Positions 7,856 to 64,000 of a stretch of DNA of 64,000 nt are shown here, piece after piece. A program made the translations under genes and the position numbers. The notes below the pieces were generated by a model, which was not told the origin of the DNA, did no database searches, and saw only the letters and a program-made list of their open reading frames with translations. Source of the stretch: Beta vulgaris subsp. vulgaris (Eukaryota > Streptophyta > Magnoliopsida > Caryophyllales > Amaranthaceae); the NCBI RefSeq assembly GCF_026745355.1, contig NC_079202.1, forward strand, positions 29,756,070 to 29,820,069. Reading direction: 5' to 3'. Numbering within the stretch: position 1 is the stretch's first letter; each line of letters begins with the position of its first letter.

Positions 7856-9209
7856 TGTTATTTCCCTAGGAACACTACAAGAGGGGGGGTGAATTGTAGG
7901 TGTAGAAATAAACGTAACTTTTTGCGGAAATTAAAACTTAAACGAATAAACAAGCTAAAGGAACACAAGGGATTTTTACGAGGAAAAACTTCTTGGGCCC
8001 AACAAGAAGAAACAACCTCGACCACTAGGGATTTTAAACTCAACACTTTCACTAATTAGGCCAAACAACTCTGTTACAACCTAATTCTAACTCGAGCCAC
8101 ACCTTGAGTTCCTAAACTCAAGTTCCTGAGACTGTTCCCTTAACAGCAGTTCCTCTCAACTTCACTCGAAGTTTTCTCACACATACAAGCTTACTCAAAG
8201 CCTCTCTTACAGAACTTCACTCAAAGTTCCCTTACCCCAAAAACCAAAATACAATTGATCGAAATAAGCTTAGTGGAATTAGAGTAAGAAGGCAAAGAAC
8301 AAATGGCTATTATGAGAGAATGAAGGCACTGACACTTAATAAGTTAAACTCACTTAATTACTTAGTCAGACACAATTTGGAACTTATCTAGACTTCTATA
8401 TTTATAGTGTTAATCATGAAGAACGTGGGATTAATGTTAGAGTACATGTTTAGTCCATTAACCCATGATGTTCCTTCCCCTAAGGAACACGTTTTACATC
8501 ATGTCCCATGATCCCATGAACTATAAATGAACGTGGATAATTGCAGCCATTACTCCTAAGAAATAGGAGTTCCTTGAGCTTATCCGAAAATCAGTTTTTA
8601 TAAAACTCTTTTTATCTTTAAAACTGAATTTTTAATCTTTAAGAAAATAATATCTTTGAAATAAAATCTTTCTAACAACCGGATATTTATTTTCTTATTT
8701 TCCGAAAAATAAAATCTTTTTCTAAAACAGATTTTCTTTTTAAAACTGATTTTATCATTTGAAATTAGAAATAACTAATTTCCTATAATCTAGGCATGAC
8801 TTACTCAATTATATTTTTAACCGTTACAATAATTACACGCCTAAGTCTAGTTCCTTTTATTAACTCAGTTCCTTTAACATATTCGCTAAGTGCCACTTAG
8901 TTTTTTTACAAAGGAACAAAGCTCATTCTCAAATGATGCCACATTCCTTACCATTCTTTCTTTGTTCCTTTACATTGGAACTAGAAAAAAAAGCCTAGCT
9001 TCTATTCTTCTTGATCCAATGCTTGCTCCAGTATCAACATAGAAACTTCTTTACTTAGCCTTTGAAATCCTCTCTTGACTTCTTCATTGACTTCGTATTC
9101 TCCCAGTTCCTTGCATTGATACCTTAAACACCATACACTTAAATAATTCATTAGTTCACTACTTAGTTTGTTCCTTTGTTTCTTTGTCATTATCAAAACA
9201 AAACCCATA
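7856..9209 (-). repeat. 5' LTR of Sirevirus 1
   Basis: The plus-strand sequence from 7856 (TGTTATTTCCC) matches the solo LTR at 57702-59057 over most of its length, including the AACGTAACTTTTTGCGG region and the TTCTTCTTGATCCAATGCTT end. The outer boundary is uncertain: CA dinucleotides at 9201-9202 or 9208-9209 are both possible because this copy diverges from the solo LTR there. GGAAC/GTTCC words are frequent. Confidence 0.85.
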
Positions 9210-29760: not shown

Positions 29761-30331
29761 CTTGGATTTAATCGTAAGTGATATTGAAAAGGGAACTCAA
29801 ACAAGATCCCAACTTAAAAATTTATGTGCTTTCCAAGCCTTTCTATCTATGACAGAACCTCGAGATCACAATGATGCCCTTCTAGAGTCTGACTGGATAA
29901 ATGCCATGCAAGAGGAACTGAATTAGTTCTAGAGGAACAAGGTCTGACATCTTGAGACCAGGCCTAAAAACCAAAAGGTGATTGGGCTGAAATGGGTCTT
30001 CAGGAACAAGTTGGACGAACATGGAACAATCATAAGGAACAAAGCCAGACTCGTAGCCAAAGGGTATAATCAACAAGAAGGTATTGACTTCGATTAAAAT
30101 TTTGTTCCTGTAGCTAGAATAGAAGCAACAAGAATTTTGATTGCCTTTGCTGCATTCATGGGTTTTAGGTTGTACCAAATGGACGTCAAATGTGCCTTTT
30201 TGAATGGGTATTTAATTGAAGACGTCTATGTGGAACAACCCCCTGGATTTGAAAACCTGATCTTCATAACCATGTCTATAAGCTAGATAAAGCTCTTTAT
30301 GGGCTTAAGCAAGCTCCTAGATCATGGTAAG
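29761..30331 (+). pseudogene. pol: Reverse transcriptase, 5' half, of Sirevirus 2
   Basis: The reading shows [20 protein letters not shown] and [17 protein letters not shown] (about 29975-30090), then [18 protein letters not shown] (about 30170) and EQPPGFEN. It stops at the Tat insertion after the LKQAPRSW-type position. Several stops (about 29923-29950, 30095, 30285) are present. The remainder of RT resumes at 49043. Confidence 0.9.
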
Positions 30332-30964
30332 TGTTACGTAGTACGAAACTAGTAATGCAAAACAACAACTCCCAACTTCAGGTTCTTAATTTGGAGACTT
30401 GTGCAATAATGATTGGGCTCGAATCCCGATTCTGAACTCCGATCAGCAACCTGCAAAAAGGGACCCACCCTGGAGGTTTGGGTGGTATTTCCCCCTTCGA
30501 TGCTTAAGTCAGATATCAGGGATATGAAGGAACTTTTAGAGAGAGAAAGTAGAGAAAGAGAGAGAGATAATTTATGGCAGAATAACAGTACTATGCTCTG
30601 AAAAACGTACCTCTTCCCTGACATCAAGGACTATTTATACTGTTTAGAATGACTGCTGTGCCTTGATGTCACCCTAATTTGGGAGCATTTGATTGGCTAA
30701 GCAATTATATCAAGACACGTGGCAAATGCTGATTGGTCAATACAATTTACCCTTTAGCAGAATCAGGCTTTACTTGTATTGGGCCTAAGTACAATTTTAC
30801 GGCCACAAGGGAGCTTTTCAGTACACCTTTTCCTCAGAAAAGTGAACTTTAGCCCAAAGAACCTGCAGGCCTTTGTACTTTTCTTTGCCTAAGCGAATGC
30901 CACATGTAGTGCTGGAATAGTGCCACGTGTCATCAGAGTAGCCGCCGATTTTTAGGCTTCAACA
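30332..30964 (-). repeat. 3' LTR of the Tat-lineage element
   Basis: 633 bp, starting TGTTACGTAGTACG and ending GGCTTCAACA. It is matched to 48414-49042 with scattered differences. The adjoining interior reads AAGGGGCAAA on the minus strand (30965-30974), a short polypurine tract. Confidence 0.95.
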
Positions 30965-33141: not shown

Positions 33142-35673
33142 TGTAACACCCCAAAACTTTGGTTCTAAAACTTTATAAAATATTCACTTTTCATTAAAAT
33201 ATCTGAACAAACCTTTAGGGTGTTACCGCCGCATCTATTGTTCAAAATAAATGCAAGGCTAATTATTAGAAATAAAAATTTTACTCACAAACCAAAGTAT
33301 CAAAATAAACCAAACTAAGTTGTCTACTTTATACTAAAACAAAACTAAACAATCTCAAATGGCAGTACTGTAGTGTTTATTAAACTAGGTGAACTTAAGA
33401 ACTATAAATTCACTCATTCCTGCAACGTAGTCCCTTTCACCAACCTGCACAATATAAATAGGAAAAGAGCAAAGAAAAACAAAAACACAAAAATTAGCGA
33501 AAGCTAAGTAATTACAACTCCATCCCGTAAAATAATAATAATAATAGTTATATTTTAAAAATAATTTTTATAGCATACTACAGACAAATATAACGTAATA
33601 CAGACAAGTATAACATAATACAAACAAGTATATAATATGATTAACCATTTCAGTTATCCAAGTTTATACGAGTCATACATAACAATTTTATTTATTAGAA
33701 GGGAATTGAACGTCAGTAGGCCGGGACTAATCCCAGCAACCACCTACTTCAACATGGGTCGTCACCCAGATAATTAATAGTAATGGCCAATATCGTTTTG
33801 CAGAACGTCCCTAGTGTGCACACCCCTCACTAATCTAATGGGTATCCGCAATGCGCACCAATAGTATTAGGAGGAAGACAATAAAGAGTTGTAACATAAT
33901 AAAATCAAGTACTGTTCATCACATATGGAGGATCCAAATCCACAGGATAATTCCCTCAATTTCCACTTTACGTGATTAATAGATTTTTAAAAGTTGTGAC
34001 ACATCAAACATCACATTAACATTAGCAGGAACATCTTTAGTTCAAATAATATTTTTCACAACTTAGCCACTTAATAAAATTATACTAATCAACGTCCATA
34101 ATTCATAGTAACCAATATATCCATCATTAGAGCCTCATAGAGTCACAATATATGTCAACTTATAATACCGTTCGCTACATCATTAACTTACTAGTTATAC
34201 CCATTAAGTACATTGCCAATATTAGCATAATTTTAATACGATTGTATAATTAGGTACATTAAAAAAGAAATCCACTTCCATAACAACAATACCAGTAGAT
34301 ACATATATATTATACGCAGGGATAATAGTACTATAGTAATAATAATAATAATAATTTTAGTCATAGAAAGTACTATACGATTCCTGTCACATAATATACA
34401 TCTAACATAAACATAGAATCACATAACCACATGTATTACACATAGCACATACAATTCCTAACGGGATTCTAGTTGTTGATGGACATTGTGAATTACCTCA
34501 AATGCTTCCCAAGTATAGCAATATCAACTAAAAGTCGTCTTCTACGAAGTTTCCGTCTACAACAAATAATATTACCTAAAGTTAGTCACTTAATGTAATA
34601 TCTCGAAAATAATTAACCACAGTTTACAAGATAAATAATTAACAAAAGGAAAGAAAGAAGAAAAAAAAAAAATTTGAGGAAAAGCGTGACAGGTGCAACA
34701 GGTGCACAAAATTCAATATATATAACACCCTGTGAGTTGTGGCAGCAAGTCACAACTCTCCGTGAACTTGCTGTCCACACTCATTAATTTGTTTTTTTTT
34801 TTTTTTTTCAAAACATCAAGCCTATAAAGGAACCTTTGTTCCTATTTAGCCATTATTCCACCAAAAACCAGAAGAACAGAAGAACAAAAGAAAGAATAAA
34901 GAAGACGGAAGAAGGAAGAAGAGAAGAAGAAGATCGGTCGCGGACTCCGGTCAAGTCGCCGGAGTCACGTCGGGTTTTAAAAATTTACATCATTTTTCTG
35001 TTTAAAACCTTCGAAAATAACAATGGTAATTCTAGATCTGAAATTTAGAACTTACCAAAGAGATGAAGAAAGTGAATTATGTGAGAATTTCTGGGTGTTT
35101 GGGGATATATATATGTATGTAAATCTAGGGTTTCACTAAAAGATAAGTATTTTAAAAAATTTGTGATACTAACTTTTTGTTTGCATATTAGTAGCGAACG
35201 ATAACGTTAAAGTTCGAGGACGAACTTTCTTTTAAGGGAGAGTAGATGTAATATCCCAAATTTTTGTAACTATTTTATAAATTTATTTTGTTATAATAAG
35301 ATTTTATAAATATAAAATTCTGAAAAATAAAGTAAAATCATAACAAATCAGATTTTTATGAAACTATTTTATTTATTAAATCAGATTTTTATGTTTAAAA
35401 AAAAAATTCGAAATGAGATTTTTTTTAAAAATCAGAATTTTCTTTTCTCGCTATCTTTCTCTTTGAACGAAAAAAAAAAATCTGATTTTTAAAAAAAATC
35501 TCATTTCGAATATTTTTTTTTTAGAACATAAAAATTTGATTTAATAAATAAAATAGTTTCATAAAAATCTGATTTGTTATGATTTTACTTTATTTTTCAG
35601 AATTTTATATTTATAAAATCTTATTATAACAAAATGAATTTATAAAATAGTTACAAAAATTTGGGATATTACA
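33142..35673 (-). repeat. 3' LTR of the nested chromovirus, with internal inverted duplication
   Basis: 2,532 bp against 2,263 bp for the partner at 41032-43294. The excess is an inverted copy of the LTR start plus adjacent interior, lying at about 35163-35433. Outside that block the two LTRs are nearly identical, including the T-run near 34790 and the (AAT)n at about 34340, so the insertion is fairly young. Confidence 0.93.
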
Positions 35674-35758
35674 TCTACTCTCCCTTAAAAGAAAGTTCGT
35701 CCTCGAACTTTAACGTTATCGTTCGCTACTAATATGCAAACAAAAAGTTAGTATCACA
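35162..35758. repeat. Large inverted repeat (fold-back) at the LTR/PPT junction
   Basis: Arms of about 275 bp, 35162-35436 and 35481-35758, are near-perfect reverse complements around a 44-bp spacer. The right arm is original: LTR end plus 85 bases of interior including TTCGAGGACGAACTTTC and the purine run AAGGGAGAG. The left arm is the extra copy. It includes interior sequence that an LTR should not contain. Confidence 0.92.
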
Positions 35759-41031: not shown

Positions 41032-43294
41032 TGTAACACCCCAAAACTTTGGTTCTAAAACTTTATAAAATATTCACTTTTCATTAAAATATCTAAACAA
41101 ACCTTTAGGGTGTTACCGCCGCATCTATTGTTCAAAAGAAATGCAAGGCTAATTATTAGAAATAAAAATTTTACTCACAAACCAAAGTATCAAAATAAAC
41201 CAAACTAAGTTGTCTACTTTATATAAAACAAAACTAAACAATCTCAAATGGAGTACTGTAGTGTTTTTAAACTAGGTGAACTTAAAACTATAAATTCACT
41301 CATTCCTGCAACGTAGTCCCTTTCACCAACCTGCACAATATAAATAGGAAAAGAGCAAAGAAAACAAAAACACAAAAAATTAGCGAAAGCTAAGTAATTA
41401 CAACTCCATCCCGTAAAATAATAATAATAATAGTTATATTTTAAAAATAATTTTTATAGCATATACAGACAAATATAACGTAATACAGACAAGTATAACA
41501 TAATAAACAAGTATATAATATGATTAACCATTTCAATTATCCAAGTTTATATGAGTCATACAAAACAATTTTATTTATTAGAAGGGAATTGAACGTCAGT
41601 AGGCCGGGACTAATCCCAGTAACCACCTACTTCAACATGGGTCGTCACCCAGATAATTAAGAGTAATGGCCAATATCGTTTTGCAGAACGTCCCTAGTGT
41701 GCACACCCCTCACTAATCTAATGGGTATCCGCAATGCGCACCAATAGTATTAGGAGGAAGACAATAAAGAGTTGTAATAATAAAATCAAGTACTGTTCAT
41801 CACCTATTGGAGGATCCAAATCCACAGGATAATTCCCTCAATTTCCACTTTACGTGATTAATAGATTTTTAAAAGTTGTGACACATCAAACATCACATTA
41901 ACATTAGCAGGAACATCTTTAGTTCAAATAATATTTTTCACAACTTAGCCACTTAATAAAATTATACTAATCAACGTCCATAATTCATAGTAACCAATAT
42001 ATCCATCATTAGAGCCTCATAGAGTTACAATATATGTCAACTTATAATACCGTTCGCTACATCATTAACTTACTAGTTATACCCATTAAGTACATTGCCA
42101 ATATTAGCATAATTTTAATACGATTGTATAATTAGGTACATTAAAAAAGAAATCCACTTCCATAACAACAATACCAGTAGATACATATATATTATACGCA
42201 GGGATAATAGTACTATAGTAATAATAATAATAATAATTTTAGTCATAGAAAGTACTATACGATTCCTGTCACATAATATACATCTAACATAAACATAGAA
42301 TCACATAACCACATGTATTACACATAGCACATAGAATTCCTAACGGGATTCTAGTTGTTGATGGACATTGTGAATTACCTCAAACGCTTCCCAAGTATAG
42401 CAATATCAATTAAAAGTCGTCTTCTACGAAGTTTCCGTCTACAACAAATAATATTACCTAAAGTTAGTCACTTAATGTAATATCTTGAAAATAATTAACC
42501 ACAGTTTACAAGATAAATAATTAACAAAAGGAAAGAAAGAAGAAAAAAAATAAAAAAAAAATTGAGGAAAAGCGTGACAGGTGCAACAGGTGCACAAAAT
42601 TCAATATATATAACACCCTGTGAGTTGTGGCAGCAAGTCACAACTCTCCGTGAACTTGCTGTCCACACTCATTAATTTGTTTGTTTTTTTTTTTTTTTCA
42701 AAACATCAAGCCTATAAAGGAACCTTTGTTCCTATTTAGCCATTATTCCACCAAAAACCAGAAGAACAGAAGAACAGAAGAAAGAATAAAGAAGACGGAA
42801 GAAGGAAGAAGAGAAGAAGAAGATCGGTCGCGGACTCCAGTCAAGTCGCCGGAGTCACGTCGGGTTTTAAAAATTTACATCATTTTTCTGTTTAAAACCT
42901 TCGAAAATAACAATGGTAATTCTAGATCTGAAATTTAGAACTTACCAAAGAGATGAAGAAAGTGAATTATGTGAGAATTTCTGGGTGTTTGGGGATATAT
43001 ATATGTATGTAAATCTAGGGTTTCACTAAAAGATAAGTATTTTAAAAAATTTCAGAATTTTCTTTTCTCTCTATCTTTCTCTTTGAACGAAAAAAAAAAT
43101 CTGATTTTTAAAAAAAATCTCATTTCGAATTTTTTTTTTTTTTTAAACATAAAAATCTGATTTAATAAATAAAATAGTTTCATAAAAATCTGATTTGTTA
43201 TGATTTTACTTTATTTTTCAGAATTTTATATTTATAAAATCTTATTAAAACAAAATAAATTTATAAAATAGTTACAAAAATTTGGGATATTACA
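41032..43294 (-). repeat. 5' LTR of the nested chromovirus
   Basis: 2,263 bp, TGTAACACC...GATATTACA on the plus strand. It lacks the extra inverted block present in the left LTR. Small indels (for example at the T-run near 42680) distinguish the two copies. The 70- to 85-codon open frames that appear in both LTRs (34836 and 42681) are not genes. Confidence 0.95.
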
Positions 43295-48394: not shown

Positions 48395-48411
48395 CCCCAC
48401 AGACGGCGCCA
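48395..48411 (-). promoter_or_regulatory. Primer binding site of the Tat-lineage element
   Basis: The minus strand reads TGGCGCCGTCTGTGGGG two bases inside the right LTR. This type of site is common in Tat and Athila elements and differs from the Met type of the other elements here. Confidence 0.93.
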
Positions 48412-48413
48412 AA

Positions 48414-49042
48414 TGTTACGTAGTACGAAACTAGTAATGCAAAACAACAACTCCCAACTTCAGGTTCTTAATTTGGAGACTTGTGCAACAATGATTGGGC
48501 TCGAATCCCGATTCTGAACTCCGATCAGCAACCTGCAAAAAGGGACCCACCCTGGAGGTTTGGGGGGTATTTTCCCCTCCGATGCTTAAGTCAGATATCA
48601 GGGATATGAAGGAACTTTTAGAGAGAGAAAGTAGAGAGAGAGAGAGAATTTATGGCAGAATAACAGTACTATGCTCTGAAAAACATACCTCTTCCCTGAA
48701 ATCAAGGACTATTTATACTGTTTAGAATGACTATTGTGCCTTGATGTCACCCTACTTTGGGAGCATTTGATTGGCTAAGCAATAATATCAGGACACGTGG
48801 TAAATGCTAATTGGTCAATACAATTTACCCTTTAGCTGAATCAGGCTCTACTTGTATTGGGCCTAAGTACAATTTGAGGGCTACAAGGGAGCTTTTCTGT
48901 ACACCTTTTCCTCATAAAAGTGTACTTTAGCCCAAAGAACCTGCAGGCCTTTGTACTTTTCTTTGCCTAAGCGAATGCCACATGTAGTGCTGGAATAGTG
49001 CCACGTGTCATCAGAGTAGCTGCCGATTTTTAGGCTACAACA
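48414..49042 (-). repeat. 5' LTR of the Tat-lineage element, with TATA box
   Basis: 629 bp, TGTTACGTAG...GGCTACAACA. On the minus strand TATAAATA lies at 48717-48710, a plausible promoter for the genomic RNA. The partner LTR has the same box near 30640-30650. CGTCC words are not seen in either LTR. Confidence 0.93.
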
Positions 49043-57701: not shown

Positions 57702-59057
57702 TGTTATTTCTTGGGTGTAGAAATAAACGTAGCTTTTTGCGGAAATTAAAACTTAAACGAATAAACAAGCTAGAGGAACACAAGGGATTTTTACGAGGAA
57801 AAACTTCTTGGGCCCAACAAGAAGAAACAAACTCGACCACTAGGGATTTTAAACTCAACTCTTTCACTAATTAGGCCAAACAACTTTGTTACAACCTAAT
57901 TCTAACTCGAGCCACACCTTGAGTTCCTAAACTCAAGTTCCTGAGCCACTGTTCCCTTAACAGTAGTTCCTCTCAACTTCACTCGAAGTTTTCTCACTCA
58001 TACAAGCTTCACTCAAAGCCTCTCTCTTATAGAACTTCACTCAAAGTTCCCTTACCAAAAACCAAAATACAATTGATCGAAATAAGCTTAGTGGAATTAG
58101 AGTAAGAAAGCAAAGAACAAATGGCTATTATGAGAGAATGAAGGCACTGACACTTAATTAGTTAAACTCACTTAATTACTTAGTCAGACACACTTTGGAA
58201 CTCATTTAGACTTCAATATTTATAGTGATAATCATAAAGAACGTGGGAGTAAAACTTGATTACATGTTAAGTCCATTAACCCATGATGTTCCTTCCCCTA
58301 AGGAACACGTTTCTTATCATGTCCCATGATCCCATGATCTCAATATGAACGTGGATATATTTTAGCCAAAAGTCCTAAGTAATAGGAGTTCCTTGAGCTT
58401 TATCCGAAAATCAGTTAGTTATAAAAACAGCTTTATCATTAAAACTGAATTTTTAATCTTTTAAGAAAATAATATCTTTTAAACCAATTCTTTATAAAAC
58501 CGGATAATTATTTTCTTTGTATTTTCCGAAAAATAAAATCTTTTCCTTAAACAGATTTTCTTTTTAAAACTGATTTTATCATTTAAACTGATTTTAAATT
58601 AGTTAAAACTAATTTCGTATAATTTAGGCATGACTTACTCAATTGCGTAATTGTACCGTTATACTTTTGCACGCCTAAGTCTAGTTCCTTTTATAAACTA
58701 AGTTCCTTTAACAGATTCGTTTAGTGCCACTTAGTTTGTTCCTTAGAAAGGAACAAACTTTCATTCTCAAATAAAACTGCCACCGTTCCTTACCATCCTT
58801 ACTTTGTTCCTTTACACTGGAACTAGAAAAAAAAACGCCTAGCTTTTATTCTTCTTGATCCAATGCTTGCTCCAGTATCAACTTATAGAAACTTCTTTAC
58901 TTAGCCTTTGAAATCCTCTCTTGACTTCTTCCTTGACTTCGTATTCTCCCAGTTCCTTGCATTGATACCTTAATCATCATACACTTAAACAACTCATGAG
59001 TTCACTACTTAGTTTGCATCTTTGTTTCTTTGTCAGCATCAAAACTTGGGTTCAACA
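57702..59057 (-). repeat. Solo LTR of a Sirevirus inside RNase H
   Basis: 1,356 bp, starting TGTTATTTCTTGGG and ending GGTTCAACA. It is collinear with 7856-9209 with roughly 90% identity by eye. AAGCC is present immediately on both sides (57697-57701, 59058-59062) and the pol reading resumes directly afterwards, so a whole element inserted and was later reduced to one LTR by LTR-LTR recombination. About 18 GGAAC/GTTCC words are counted within it. Confidence 0.95.
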
Positions 59058-59860: not shown

Positions 59861-60984
59861 TGTAACACCCCGAAATTTCTCTGAAATTTTCGCGTGTTAA
59901 TTAATATTATCTGATGTGACAAATTATATTTCTATCAAATTATTTTTGGGAATTATATATATTTATGTATATATATATTTTTACACCTACATTATTTTAA
60001 TTGACTTTGTGCAGAGGTTATAATGTACGTCTTATTTATGTGGCATTGTGTTAGTCGTATAATATAGTTGTCTGCGCTGTTTTTATGAAACGAACAATGT
60101 AGTACTTTTGCGTGTGCCGAGTGTATAATGTGATAGTATAATACGTGTATATTTATATTACGTTGGTAATAATAATTTTTAGTTTGGAAAACATATACTT
60201 ATACCTATTATTTTCGAACGTTTTACTTGGTGCCTAAAACGTACATTGTACTAGTGATAGCCTTCGTGCATTATGTTATTTGTTTAGGGAGGTCCGAAAA
60301 TTCTGATATTAGCCATGTTATATGAAGAGTTTGGATAGATTTTTAAGTTCCTCTTGTAACGTTGCAATATACAAAGGTCATCTCTTCATTGACCTTTCTT
60401 ATTGCCCTTTTAATCATCACCCTTTCACCTTCTTTTTCTGAAAATAAAAATCAGAAAAACTCTCCCTTTGCCATCCTCATTTCACACGCCATTTTCAAAG
60501 AAAAAGGGAGGGGAAAAGCTTTTGTTCTTCATCCACATTTCTCACACAAAAATCAGATTTTTGTTACTTGATTTCAAGCCATTTTTACACCGATTTCAAG
60601 CGCGTGTTGAGTTCGTTGCGATTGTGTTCATAGGAGGCGAAGGTGGTGATATTTCACAAGATTTCTAGAGTACTTGGAACCTTTCTTTTGTGAATCTTTC
60701 CAAGAAAAAGGTAACTAGCGTTTTTCTAGTTCGGTAGAGTATAGATATTGAACTTAGGTTGTTAGAAATGCGTTAGAGAACATAGTATCATGTTAGGTGG
60801 AACTTAGAAGATTGTATGGTTAAAGTTTCTTGTAATTTCATGGTTGTTGAAGTTGATCCGTGATTTGAATACCACTACAAACTTGTTGTTAGCATTTATC
60901 AAATTGTTGTTTCTCTTAGAATGTTGTGGTTGCGCTTTTGGGTTGAGTTGCTTGCTTGTGTCTTGGACTCTTAGTTGTTATTGT

Positions 60985-61185
60985 GGTGATTGATGGAGTT
61001 TGTTGTGGTTATTGTCGTTGTTGTCGGTGTTGGAGTAGGTTATTGTTGTTATTATTGCTGTTGTTGGTGTTGGAGTTGTGTGTTGTTGTTATTGTCGTTG
61101 TTGTTGGTGTTGGAGTAGGTAGTTGTAGTTTTTGTCATTGTTGTTGTTGTTGGAGTATGTTATTGTTGTTGTTGTTGGTGAGCCG
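60985..61185 (+). repeat. GTT-rich minisatellite in the third chromovirus LTR
   Basis: Irregular tandem copies of a 55- to 60-bp phrase built from TTGTTGTTATTGTCGTTG and GGTGTTGGAGTAGGT, about four copies. The long open frames here are an effect of the repeat. Confidence 0.75.
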
Positions 61186-61718
61186 TGGATGATACGAGGG
61201 TGTTTGGTGTGAGTGTGGGTGTAAAGGGAGGCTGGAGTAGGCGTAGATGGCTGGAGCAAGCCATGGAGGAGCCTTCGTGGGCAAGCGAACGAAGCTCGCA
61301 AGCCACGGCAGAAGGCTGCTCGCGACTCGCGACGGCTGCCACTCGCGACCCGCGATGCTCGTCGCACCTCGTGACGGGTGGTCTGTCCCGTGGGTCGTGC
61401 TGTTGTGTTTTTATTTCTCTTTTTGGCTTACAGCTGGTATGTCCTTGCTTGGTTGGTCTTAGGTAAGGATGCTAAGGATGTTTGGGTAATCTTTTGGTGG
61501 TTTAAGTATTACGTTAGGGGTATGTGTCCTTATGTGACGGGTAACTCTTGGTTTTGAGTTTCGAAACGTGACGGTTGATAGTGTGGGTTATGCAAACTCA
61601 TGTTGGAAGCTTGATAAATAAGATTGGTTGATTTACGCTCATAACTTGTTCATATTGACGGTTGGAACTGATTGATGTGTGCTTGTCTTGTATGATTGCG
61701 CGTTGTTGGATAGAGTAA

Positions 61719-62062
61719 CTCTCGGAACGGTATGGTTCTAGAGGTCTTCATTAGGAAATCCTATGAACGGTATGGTTCAAGGAGCTTGATTTGAATTCCT
61801 AAGAACGGTATTGTTCTAGGAACTTGAGTTGTTATCCTAAGGGCGGTATGGTCCTAGGATTTGGTTACTTAACCTTGGGCGGTATGGTCCATTGGTTCCC
61901 TACGGGTGGTAAGATCCGTAGTATATAGCTATTCGAAAAGGGCGGTATGGTTCCTCGAATATGCAGGCTATTCGAAAAGGGCGGTATGGTTCCTCGAATA
62001 TGCAACGTAGGCCTTGGGCGGCATGGTCCAATGAGTCTACTCACAGATGGTATGGTCTGTTG
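61719..62062 (+). repeat. Tandem array of ten hairpins with a conserved six-base loop
   Basis: Ten inverted repeats centred on GGTATG (variants GGTATT, GGTAAG, GGCATG) lie 27 to 40 bases apart: 61719-61743, 61759-61783, 61796-61822, 61834-61860, 61871-61897, 61900-61921, 61931-61960, 61970-61999, 62007-62040 and 62042-62062. Stem sequences differ but stay complementary, for example AGAAC/GTTCT, AGGGC/GTCCT and TGGGC/GTCCA. Several have a five-base upper stem, a single unpaired base on the 5' side and a four- to five-base lower stem. Function unknown. Confidence 0.85.
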
Positions 62063-62748
62063 TGTTTGAGCTCGTTGACCGCATTTGTTGCATGGTTGAC
62101 GGGGATTGGTTGCGTTAGCTGAGTGTCTAGGTTGACGTTATGATCGTTGTACTTCTTGGTAAGTGTGATGGTTGATATTGTATTTTTCTGATGTTGTTTC
62201 TAATTATTTAAGTTCTTATCTGTTTCTTTTTGAGCCGGGAGAACTGCTAGTTACTCCCCACTGATTGTGGAAATTGTTGTATCTTGTGCAGATGGTGACG
62301 CTGTTTAGAGTGGTCCTAGTTTGGATCGGGGTTGTGTGTTTCACCCGTGTGAGCAACGAAGTGGGGCTTGTCATAGTGGATGAGCATACCAAGGCCGGAC
62401 TTAGGACTAGTTATTTAGTTTGTTATAAGTAGCTACTTCTAGTTTGACTTATGTGTTGGAACTCCTTATTTCAGTTGTTTAGTTGTTTTACTCGGTTTCG
62501 AGTTTACTTTGGCGGTTTTATGACACTTTTGAGACTTGTTGAAGAATGAGGGTATGGGAACTCATCTTGCCTTTATATATATATATCTTGGAGTTGACTT
62601 TTACTTATGTTGGCTCGTCCTATTTATAGTTCAGATTCTACTCCTTAGACTAGCATCTCCGTCTCTTTGAATTTTCGTTGCCATTATCTATAACTATTTC
62701 CTTATCTTAAGGTTATGTTCTTTTTGGTTTTAGACGGGATGTTACAGT

Positions 62749-62760
62749 TGGTATCAGAGC
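62749..62760 (+). promoter_or_regulatory. Primer binding site (tRNA-Met type) of the third chromovirus
   Basis: TGGTATCAGAGC lies two bases after the LTR end at 62746. Confidence 0.95.
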
Positions 62761-62980
62761 AAAACGTTCCAGAAGCTCTGTTAAGTTGCTATTATCTTTC
62801 CGGAAGACGAGTAGACTTGTGACTAGGATTACTAGTGTCTTAGGTTTCAAGTCTAGAATGTATGAGTGTTACCTGGGTAGGAAAGTAAGCCTGGGGAAAC
62901 ATTTTGATTACTATGTTTGTCGATTTAATGTTTGCTTATGTGACTTTGATAGACTAATGTGACAGTTTCTGTTTTGTAGT

Positions 62981-64000
62981 ATGCCTCCACGACAACAGTT
63001 AGCCGCTAGAAAGGAAGCTGCGCGTCGTCGTCGCGTAAGTCTGGAAAATGCTTTCATCTCTTTAGCTAATAGGGCTGTTTCTTCGGGTAGTGGGCAGTCT
63101 GCTTTCGACCGGTTTGACCGTCACAGGCCCCCTACTTATGATGGTGTTGCTGATCCTGTGGCTCTGGAAATTTGGTTAAGGGAGATGGAGAAGCTCTTCA
63201 CGGCAACAAACTGCTCTGCTGCCGATTGGTACCTATTGGGACCTATTATTTGAAGAAAGAGGCGGATAATTGGTGGAGTACGGTAACGGATGTGTGTATG
63301 GCTACAACTGGTTTTGGGTGGACCCAGTTCTCCGCCAAGCTGAAAGAGAGATTTTACCTTGATGAGTTGCGCTGGCAAAAGCAGGAAGAATTTCTATCTC
63401 TGACTCAAGGGAGTATGGACATCCAGAAGTACACCGACCGCTTCACGGAGCTGTCTAAATTTGCTGGTACTGTCATTCCCACCGAAGCTGGGAGGGTTAA
63501 GAGATATATAAAGAAGATGAATCCGAGGGTAAGGACCCTGGTGCTGTGTTCGGGGGTTACTACTTTTCAAGCTGCTTATGAGATGGCCCTTAGTGTTCAT
63601 GCATCAGTGAGAGAGGAAGAAGCTGTTAAGGCCGCATCTGTAAGGAAGCCTTTTCCGTCTGTTGCTCCGGGTCCGGCTAAGAAGCCGAGGTTTGAGTCGA
63701 GTTTTCGTGGTGGATACCAAGGCTCCAGTTCCAGGCAGGGTTTCGATCTGTCTAAGTGTAGGAGGTGTGAGAAGCCCGTGCATCCGGGGAAGGATTGTGA
63801 GGGTGCTGCCATTGTTTGCTTCTATTGTAGGGAAGCGGGTCACAAGGGTTATGAGTGTCCCAAGAATCCGAGGGCTACGGCTAAGCCCCCTGTTCCTCCT
63901 AGTCACTATGCTCCGCCAAAGAATCGGGTTTACAGTATGACTCATTCTGACGCCGATGTTCATCCCGACGTCATCTCTGGTACCTTTCTTGTTAATTCTG
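62981..64000 (+). pseudogene. gag: Gag of the third chromovirus (frameshifted, incomplete)
   Basis: Start at 62981 (MPPRQQLAARKEAARRRR). The capsid has FDRHRPPTYDGVADPVALEI and WLREMEKLFTATNC. Near 63235 a frame change, possibly from a short local duplication of ACCTATT, leads to YYLKKEADNWWS, then FGWTQFSAKLKERFY, TEAGRVKRYIKKMNPRVRTL and a zinc knuckle region with CRRCEKPVHPGKDC and CFYCREAGHKGYEC (63755-63860). The window ends at the start of the protease (VISGTFLVNS). Apart from the one break the frame is open, so this copy looks relatively young. Confidence 0.9.

Follow-up and report, generated by a model that had tools for sequence, protein, structure and literature searches.

A tandem array of covarying GGYATG-loop hairpins in a predicted leader intron of a beet Ty3/gypsy LTR retrotransposon, possibly a signal of unspliced genomic RNA

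The long terminal repeat (LTR) of a retrotransposon in the window, by which we mean the whole 64-kb stretch of beet DNA that was analysed, carries an array of ten tandem inverted repeats that share a six-base GGYATG loop and whose arms covary, and we place this array, in a finding that is new here, inside a predicted leader intron of 1.58 kb. It is a serious possibility, although one that stops short of being probable, that the array serves as a multi-copy cis-acting signal of the unspliced genomic RNA, its function then probably lying in Gag binding, packaging or dimerisation. The element is compact, abundant and covarying, lies in a predicted intron and is common to a gag-less element, and it is thus directly testable; to our knowledge, little is known about how RNA for translation is separated from RNA for copying, or how gag-less partners are packaged, in plant LTR retrotransposons.

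All ten units lie on the plus strand at 61719-62064, where a scan of that strand of the window confirms the tandem hairpins with a common six-base loop that had been described in the initial annotation. The loop reads GGTATG in seven of the ten and a one-base variant (GGTATT, GGTAAG or GGCATG) in the other three; the rest of the 64 kb holds four single look-alikes on the plus strand and ten on the minus strand (loop within one base, four pairs). The units are the following.

61719..61743, plus strand: hairpin 1, loop GGTATG starting at 61729, 5' bulge C
61759..61783, plus strand: hairpin 2, loop GGTATG starting at 61769, 5' bulge A
61796..61822, plus strand: hairpin 3, loop GGTATT starting at 61807, 5' bulge A
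61834..61860, plus strand: hairpin 4, loop GGTATG starting at 61845, 5' bulge A
61871..61897, plus strand: hairpin 5, loop GGTATG starting at 61881, 1x2 internal loop
61900..61921, plus strand: hairpin 6, loop GGTAAG starting at 61908, 8 pairs, bulge-free
61930..61961, plus strand: hairpin 7, loop GGTATG starting at 61944, 3x1 internal loop, 7-pair lower stem
61969..62000, plus strand: hairpin 8, loop starting at 61983, identical to hairpin 7 at an offset of 39 bp
62007..62040, plus strand: hairpin 9, loop GGCATG starting at 62020
62038..62064, plus strand: hairpin 10, loop GGTATG starting at 62049, its outermost pairs sharing 3 nt with hairpin 9

The single unpaired base on the 5' side, five pairs under the loop, is indeed found in each of hairpins 1 to 4, as had been proposed, and hairpin 4 is the top match of model R1 (44.9 bits). 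The internal loops of hairpins 9 and 10 are of other kinds than those in hairpins 5 and 7-8.

The host is a Ty3/gypsy LTR retrotransposon, of which the following parts could be located.

59861..62746, plus strand: 5' LTR, 2886 bp, TGTAACACCCC...GATGTTACA, with BLAST ends recurring at both positions in many copies
60443..60448, plus strand: possible poly(A) signal AATAAA, present within 420 nt before the donor of the predicted intron in 31 of 40 donor rows
62749..62760, plus strand: primer binding site TGGTATCAGAGC, read directly, the motif also occurring in the type B loci L066 and L075 (see below)
62981..63999, plus strand: start of gag, with PF03732 and a sub-threshold zinc knuckle within 63175-63999

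The LTR tips, TGTAAC...GTTACA, were likewise read directly, and the primer binding site is one which we take to be of the initiator Met tRNA type. The gag piece also matches PF19259; the frame of the gag ATG (62981-63260) differs from the long gag frame (63172-63999), and the gag of this copy seems interrupted. The published Bongo3 LTR primer was absent from 80 loci. If the AATAAA at 60443, which does not occur in the type B rows, were used as poly(A) signal, R would be short and the array would fall in U5, where it probably sits. The earlier placement of the array in the leader of the genomic RNA is supported as probable, given a presumed transcription start near 60390; a TATA-like string near 60368 was rejected as the TATA box for this start, being private to the window copy and not conserved. 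The same LTR contains a GTT-rich 40-bp tandem repeat of 4.3 copies at 61003-61175, its least conserved part (identity 0.28-0.47, many gaps), and a G+C-rich and CpG-rich patch at 61200-61400 within T/G-rich sequence. Elsewhere in the window there are direct repeats at 33142-35673 and 41032-43294 (7.6-7.9 kb apart, possibly LTR pairs of nested elements), at 7899-9199 and 57714-59045 (49.8 kb apart) and at 30329-30841 and 48411-48919 (18.1 kb apart), the last two each possibly an LTR pair; these pairs are 92-100% alike, apart from one short pair at 81%. An inverted repeat with 245-nt arms, 98% complementary and 107 nt apart, lies at 35162-35758, at the end of the repeat 33142-35673.

The position of the array within an LTR is borne out on the scale of the genome (569 Mb, 20 contigs), in which it is amplified as an LTR family. 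A two-unit pattern, CGGTATGGN{20,34}CGGTATGG, gave 377 + 407 = 784 matches, with several matches per array, versus 2 + 2 in the reversed control, and BLAST with the array gave at least 42 matches, the best 40 of 316 candidates having been scored. Arrays with the same loop and other closing pairs were not detected (18 matches versus 30 in the reversed control). For comparison of copies, L001-L030 were chosen by likeness to the window array, L001 being the window itself, and L061-L080 are the first 20 listed C1 arrays; L071 and L074 (arrays the same as in L022 and L020) and L031-L060 (regions within L061-L070) were dropped. As the loci were chosen by their arrays, the conservation of the array itself is inflated. 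By loop likeness alone, 48 loci yielded 463 units, 7-12 per array, with one look-alike type removed and 14 of 150 private units skipped as lying more than three changes away; an earlier filter, which required at least two of four standard pairs and included a few look-alikes outside arrays, had yielded 476 units, 7-13 per array. Of the 463 units, 393 have T and 70 have C at the third loop position, and the other positions are nearly fixed, loop percentages being upper bounds since the units were selected by loop.

The predicted intron around the array, with the features that accompany it, is laid out as follows (a slash marks a splice site).

60390..60710, plus strand: predicted first leader exon, AUG-poor, its start assumed from the initial annotation
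60711..62291, plus strand: predicted intron 1, 1581 nt, AAAAAG/GTAACTAG ... CACTGATTGTGG...TTGTGCAG/
62237..62258, plus strand: small hairpin GGGAG-AACT-GCT-AGTT-A-CTCCC, conserved, just upstream of the predicted branch point
62885..62979, plus strand: possible intron 2, or alternative acceptor for intron 1, GGAAA/GTAAGC ... CTAATG...TTTTGTAG/T

Of 47 aligned copies, 42 have the donor GT and 44 the acceptor AG, and with a candidate branch point, CTGAT, recognised by eye about 27 nt before the acceptor, the three signals expected of a spliceosomal intron are conserved. In the 47-copy alignment, identity to the window is 0.86-0.88 at 60711-60810, which starts AAAAAG/GTAACTAG, and 0.89 at 62211-62310, which holds CTGATTGTGG...TTGTGCAG/ (62291); other windows of the LTR range from 0.28 to 0.82, mostly 0.6-0.79. 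The array and its flank to 62110 reach 0.77-0.94, a value biased by the choice of copies by their arrays, and the conservation of the donor and acceptor tracts is free of that bias. The second acceptor, TTCTGTTTTGTAG/T, stands directly ahead of the gag ATG, and GTAA (62885) and TAG are kept in all 12 rows that reach them, L001 included. With conserved donor and acceptors, splicing as predicted would remove the array from the mRNA and, if the second acceptor is taken, the primer site as well.

The distribution of start codons accords with such a layout in that the predicted first exon of the window has no ATG in 321 nt, versus 15.5 per kb expected, and across 39 rows a total of 48 ATG fall in the 320 nt ahead of the donor (3.85 per kb). 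Thirteen rows with full flanks have 3.4 ATG per kb before the donor, 25.9 in the 1000 nt after it and 16.7 upstream; in this row set L064 is counted twice, and two LTR pairs, L062/L063 and L065/L066, are included. The T content counts against an intron, being hardly richer in intron 1 (0.37) than in exon 1 (0.35). A search of the 569-Mb genome for spliced DNA copies of the 60710^62292 junction found none at up to 3 mismatches. The U5 of new copies derives from the 5' end of the reverse-transcribed RNA, and copying of RNA spliced at this junction would therefore yield intron-less LTRs; that no spliced copy was found means either that the intron is never removed or that spliced RNA is kept out. 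Zero spliced copies, with the 60710^62292 junction alone searched, fits no splicing at all equally well, and it is from the conserved signals that we infer splicing of 60711-62291.

Some further observations concern the 3' part of this region. The conserved hairpin at 62237-62258 was dismissed as an exceptional structure, its fold having a z of only -1.56, and a consensus fold of 62063-62165 gave no structure (0.0 kcal/mol). Inside the predicted intron, 62130-62195 resembles the C/D snoRNA snoR101 (E 0.058), a candidate set aside at 24.9 bits, below the threshold of 40. The ATG at the predicted acceptor opens a 46-codon frame (62292-62432) in the window copy, which is kept in some type A copies; the type B sequence differs there.

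Type B, a second LTR type that is otherwise dissimilar, consists of eight loci (L028, L061, L064, L065, L066, L068, L075 and L076), whose matches to the window LTR are confined to pieces within 60701-62291, plus the LTR end and primer binding site in L066; the donor piece is shared by seven of the eight. Identity is 0.37-0.40 in exon 1 and 0.56 at 60691-60700, rises to 0.89 at 60701-60710 and 0.79-0.84 up to 60830, and is 0.28-0.67 in mid-intron, where 61000-61333 is at background (0.28-0.40). It then stands at 0.71 and 0.85 in the two halves of the array, 0.57 at 62111-62200 and 0.91 at 62251-62291, and drops to 0.39 from 62292. The intron is conserved more strongly than the exons and its limits of similarity fall at the splice sites, which suggests that it is a unit. 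Recombination at the edges of the module could be a selection-free cause of the sharing between types A and B. Four loci (L029, L062, L063 and L079, two of which are the LTR pair of one element) carry a type B exon 1 end (60600-60710) on an otherwise type A sequence, which shows that exchange takes place near the donor as well.

On detailed examination, L066 and L065 proved to be one type B element, with LTRs 96.8% alike over 2795 columns, in which the array, primer binding site, a PPT-like tract and LTR tips are present and whose flanks, AAGCG and AAGTG, fit a target duplication with one change. Its internal region of 2176 nt (1390 + 786 nt) matched the window gag in neither blastn nor tblastn searches; forward open frames in the 1390-nt piece reach at most 76 aa, and the first 696 nt of that piece recur in L075 at 92.5%. 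This gag-less element of the genome thus carries the array, and type B could be mobilised in trans.

In the reading that we prefer, a row of some 7-12 short palindromes, whose GGYAUG loop hardly varies, would act in the sense transcript. RNA that retains the intron would keep the array, spliced mRNA with its AUG-poor first exon would lose it, and the array would mark the unspliced genomic RNA as the template for reverse transcription. Recognition might take the form of multivalent Gag binding via exposed loop guanines and/or pairing between units, in one or two RNAs. A recognition array borne on an intron would keep spliced RNA out of copying, and the gag-less type would use the same module in trans.

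Placement inside a predicted intron, in both element types, would also suit an export or intron-retention element, whose units recruit a host export factor for the intron-containing genomic RNA, and a multivalent adaptor would be well served by repeated binding sites. Retroviral CTE, RTE, MTE and RRE elements are known to recruit export machinery for intron-containing RNA. We nevertheless consider this rather unlikely, as the sequence offers nothing to tell export from packaging and no factor with binding to GGYAUG loops is known to us. For plant LTR-element RNA, a 2025 review states that export has yet to be studied directly (PMC12786077).

Similarly, the position between a conserved donor and acceptor, with conserved tracts also extending 100 nt past the donor and about 80 nt ahead of the acceptor, could be that of a splicing regulator, which would determine, through its structure or by binding a repressor, what share of the RNA is spliced, with no role in the particle. 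This is unlikely, however, since a nearly fixed loop repeated 7-12 times exceeds the needs of a structural spacer, and the distances from the array to the donor and the acceptor are about 1 kb and 230 nt.

The ATG density within the array, 37.5 per kb versus 20.5 expected, and the fact that the free loop letter (T or C) immediately precedes the AUG bring to mind a translation element, in which loop AUGs in strong context (G at -3, G at +4) would capture or divert scanning ribosomes on the unspliced RNA and keep it untranslated. An AUG in the loop, however, is a consequence of the loop being fixed and adds no independent evidence, and the leader contains many other AUGs, which makes such a role improbable.

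The fold of the array was computed for single units and for the whole. The nine distinct hairpins (hairpin 8 being a repeat of hairpin 7), each folded alone, give the inverted-repeat stem, the loop of hairpin 3 shrinking to four bases in the window copy, with z from -1.36 to -4.12 and 0 to 15 of 200 shuffles equally good. The whole array folds at -138.3 kcal/mol versus a shuffled mean of -112.1 (z -4.4, 0 of 100 shuffles as good), and the stability suggested earlier as a check against shuffled controls accordingly holds for the array. The opposite strand has a z of -4.8 and also beats 100 of 100 shuffles, so folding energy gives no choice of strand. Against the form as drawn, local hairpins arise in the whole-array model only from units 2, 6 and 10 (closing-pair probability 0.93-0.99), the probability being 0.35 for hairpins 4 and 5 and at most 0.04 for the other five, because the like arms of neighbours can pair together. 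When the alignment of 21 copies is folded, units are likewise joined to one another (-63.4 kcal/mol versus -16.3 for column shuffles), and both results weigh against the preferred reading. Covariation of the arms within units, across units that differ, indicates that the local hairpin form matters too.

A fuller and more tentative version of the same reading, which we would call possible but doubtful, is that a packaging-and-dimerisation signal arose by tandem amplification of a palindromic unit in the leader intron, that only unspliced RNA is selected, and that a gag-less parasite stays mobile by keeping the intron; the units may switch between local hairpin and unit-unit duplex, within or between RNAs. 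The YAUG at loop positions 3-6 could self-pair in trans with Y being U or C, which, as we read it, would fit the one free loop position.

The covarying arms noted in the initial annotation hold up, as both pairing and covariation score exceed all shuffles in the nine distinct window hairpins and in unit types shared between loci. In the window hairpins, 97.8% of upper-stem cells are paired within the unit versus 80.7% when shuffled (0 of 500), and the covariation score is 0.778 versus 0.407 (0 of 500); double changes occur at 4 of 5 pairs versus 2.1 (14 of 500), and there are 9 further pair types versus 7.1 (65 of 500). The shared set comprises 24 bulged unit types, each found in at least two loci, after one of 25 rows was dropped as a non-array unit. 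It has 87.9% of cells paired versus 80.9%, 24 double-change cells versus 9.5 and a covariation score of 0.355 versus 0.225 (each 0 of 500); double-change pairs (5 versus 3.8, 55 of 500) and pair types (10 versus 11.8, 498 of 500) are not in excess in these 24 types. When the partner was slid by one column, pairing fell to 52-60%. Shuffles of whole arms gave the same picture in 25 types (0.868 versus 0.775, 0 of 2000) and in 106 distinct units (0.826 versus 0.739, 0 of 2000), the units in both cases having already passed a weak pairing filter.

The kind of mismatch that is tolerated bears on the strand. Sense-strand RNA tolerates G.U and not A.C, antisense RNA does the opposite, and a DNA palindrome tolerates neither. 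At pairs 1-4 of 44 shared types picked by loop, 176 cells include 42 G.T, 1 A.C and 3 other non-pairs, whereas private units have 13 G.T and 11 A.C newly arisen from Watson-Crick pairs (Fisher p 2e-5 versus shared). With pair 5 included, G.T to A.C is 46:7 in shared versus 15:14 in private units (p 1e-3); these p-values are overstated because the shared types are kin. The earlier, pairing-filtered unit set gave 45:1 versus 13:14, and 51:7 versus 15:17 with pair 5. The G.T states are found at pairs 1, 2, 3 and 5 in differing stems; an A.C is fixed at the fifth pair of hairpin 7/8. That shared types are rich in G.T and poor in A.C while private decay is even points to selection on sense-strand RNA, and the view that the array is selected as an RNA structure of the sense strand is supported by these comparisons of copies.

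The earlier suggestion had been selection on RNA structure or on DNA palindromes, of which the first part stands on covariation and G.T bias and the second gives way to the G.T versus A.C asymmetry. Inverted-repeat arms are DNA palindromes too, and a DNA-level element would consist of protein-binding or cruciform sites in the LTR, but with shared types taking G.T and hardly A.C at pairs 1-4 of the sense strand, and private decay about equal, we find this very improbable. Non-functional tandem expansion of a chance palindrome, by unit duplication and passive copying, would fit the varying unit number (7-12) and the occurrence of unit-size duplications such as the exact 39-bp repeat, but it is highly improbable given compensatory double changes at several pairs, a near-fixed loop and strand asymmetry. 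A silencing precursor was set aside because Dicer would seem to need longer stems than the 8-12 pairs present here.

Regarding known systems, the geometry of the hairpins was said earlier to recall protein-binding RNA elements such as iron-responsive elements. The likeness holds for the geometry and ends there: no Rfam family matched 61700-62080 up to E = 10, and the iron-responsive element has a CAGUGN loop and a conserved C bulge, whereas the array has GGYAUG and a bulge of A or C. Among beet elements, the Bongo (Tekay) chromoviruses have mostly LTRs of 2.6-3.0 kb, of those listed, and a Met-tRNA primer binding site (PMC3605345), which the LTR of 2886 bp and the Met-tRNA-type site of the present element resemble; "hairpin", "stem-loop" and "tandem" have no occurrence in the text of that paper. 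The same applies to "packaging signal", "hairpin" and "dimeriz" in the 2025 review (PMC12786077), and among the titles and abstract starts listed from the open-licence literature no report of tandem hairpins in an LTR, or of an intron in an LTR, was found, nor was one in the passages on BARE, Ty1, Ogre and EVADE.

Partial splicing of LTR-element RNA is described for Ogre and EVADE, the Ogre intron lying between protein-coding parts (PMC12786077; PMC6317226). Unlike that of Ogre, the intron predicted here lies in the LTR and would have to persist in every replicated RNA. BARE elements belong to Ty1/copia. In barley, BARE1 and BARE2 keep the RNA that is translated apart from the RNA that is copied, the autonomous element packages its Gag-less partner, and there is an intron of 104 nt near the end of gag; the main text of the paper contains no instance of "hairpin" (PMC3735527). 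Separate RNA pools, here as a proposal, and a Gag-less partner are common to both cases, whereas the present element is Ty3/gypsy with its predicted intron in the LTR leader. In the Ty1 leader, hairpins present two complementary 7-nt apical motifs, for which pairing between RNAs is proposed and which are needed for retrotransposition (PMC5454406). In place of two differing motifs, the array repeats one short self-complementary core, UAUG or GUAU, whose pairing would be hypothetical.

The retroviral psi consists of leader hairpins downstream of the major splice donor, with exposed loop guanines, and is present in unspliced RNA only. The array differs from psi in its roughly ten tandem look-alike units, in its predicted leader intron and in its setting in a plant Ty3/gypsy LTR, with Gag binding as a proposal. 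It would resemble psi in being a set of structured leader hairpins with exposed loop guanines that lie beyond a predicted, conserved donor and are predicted to stay only in the unspliced RNA.
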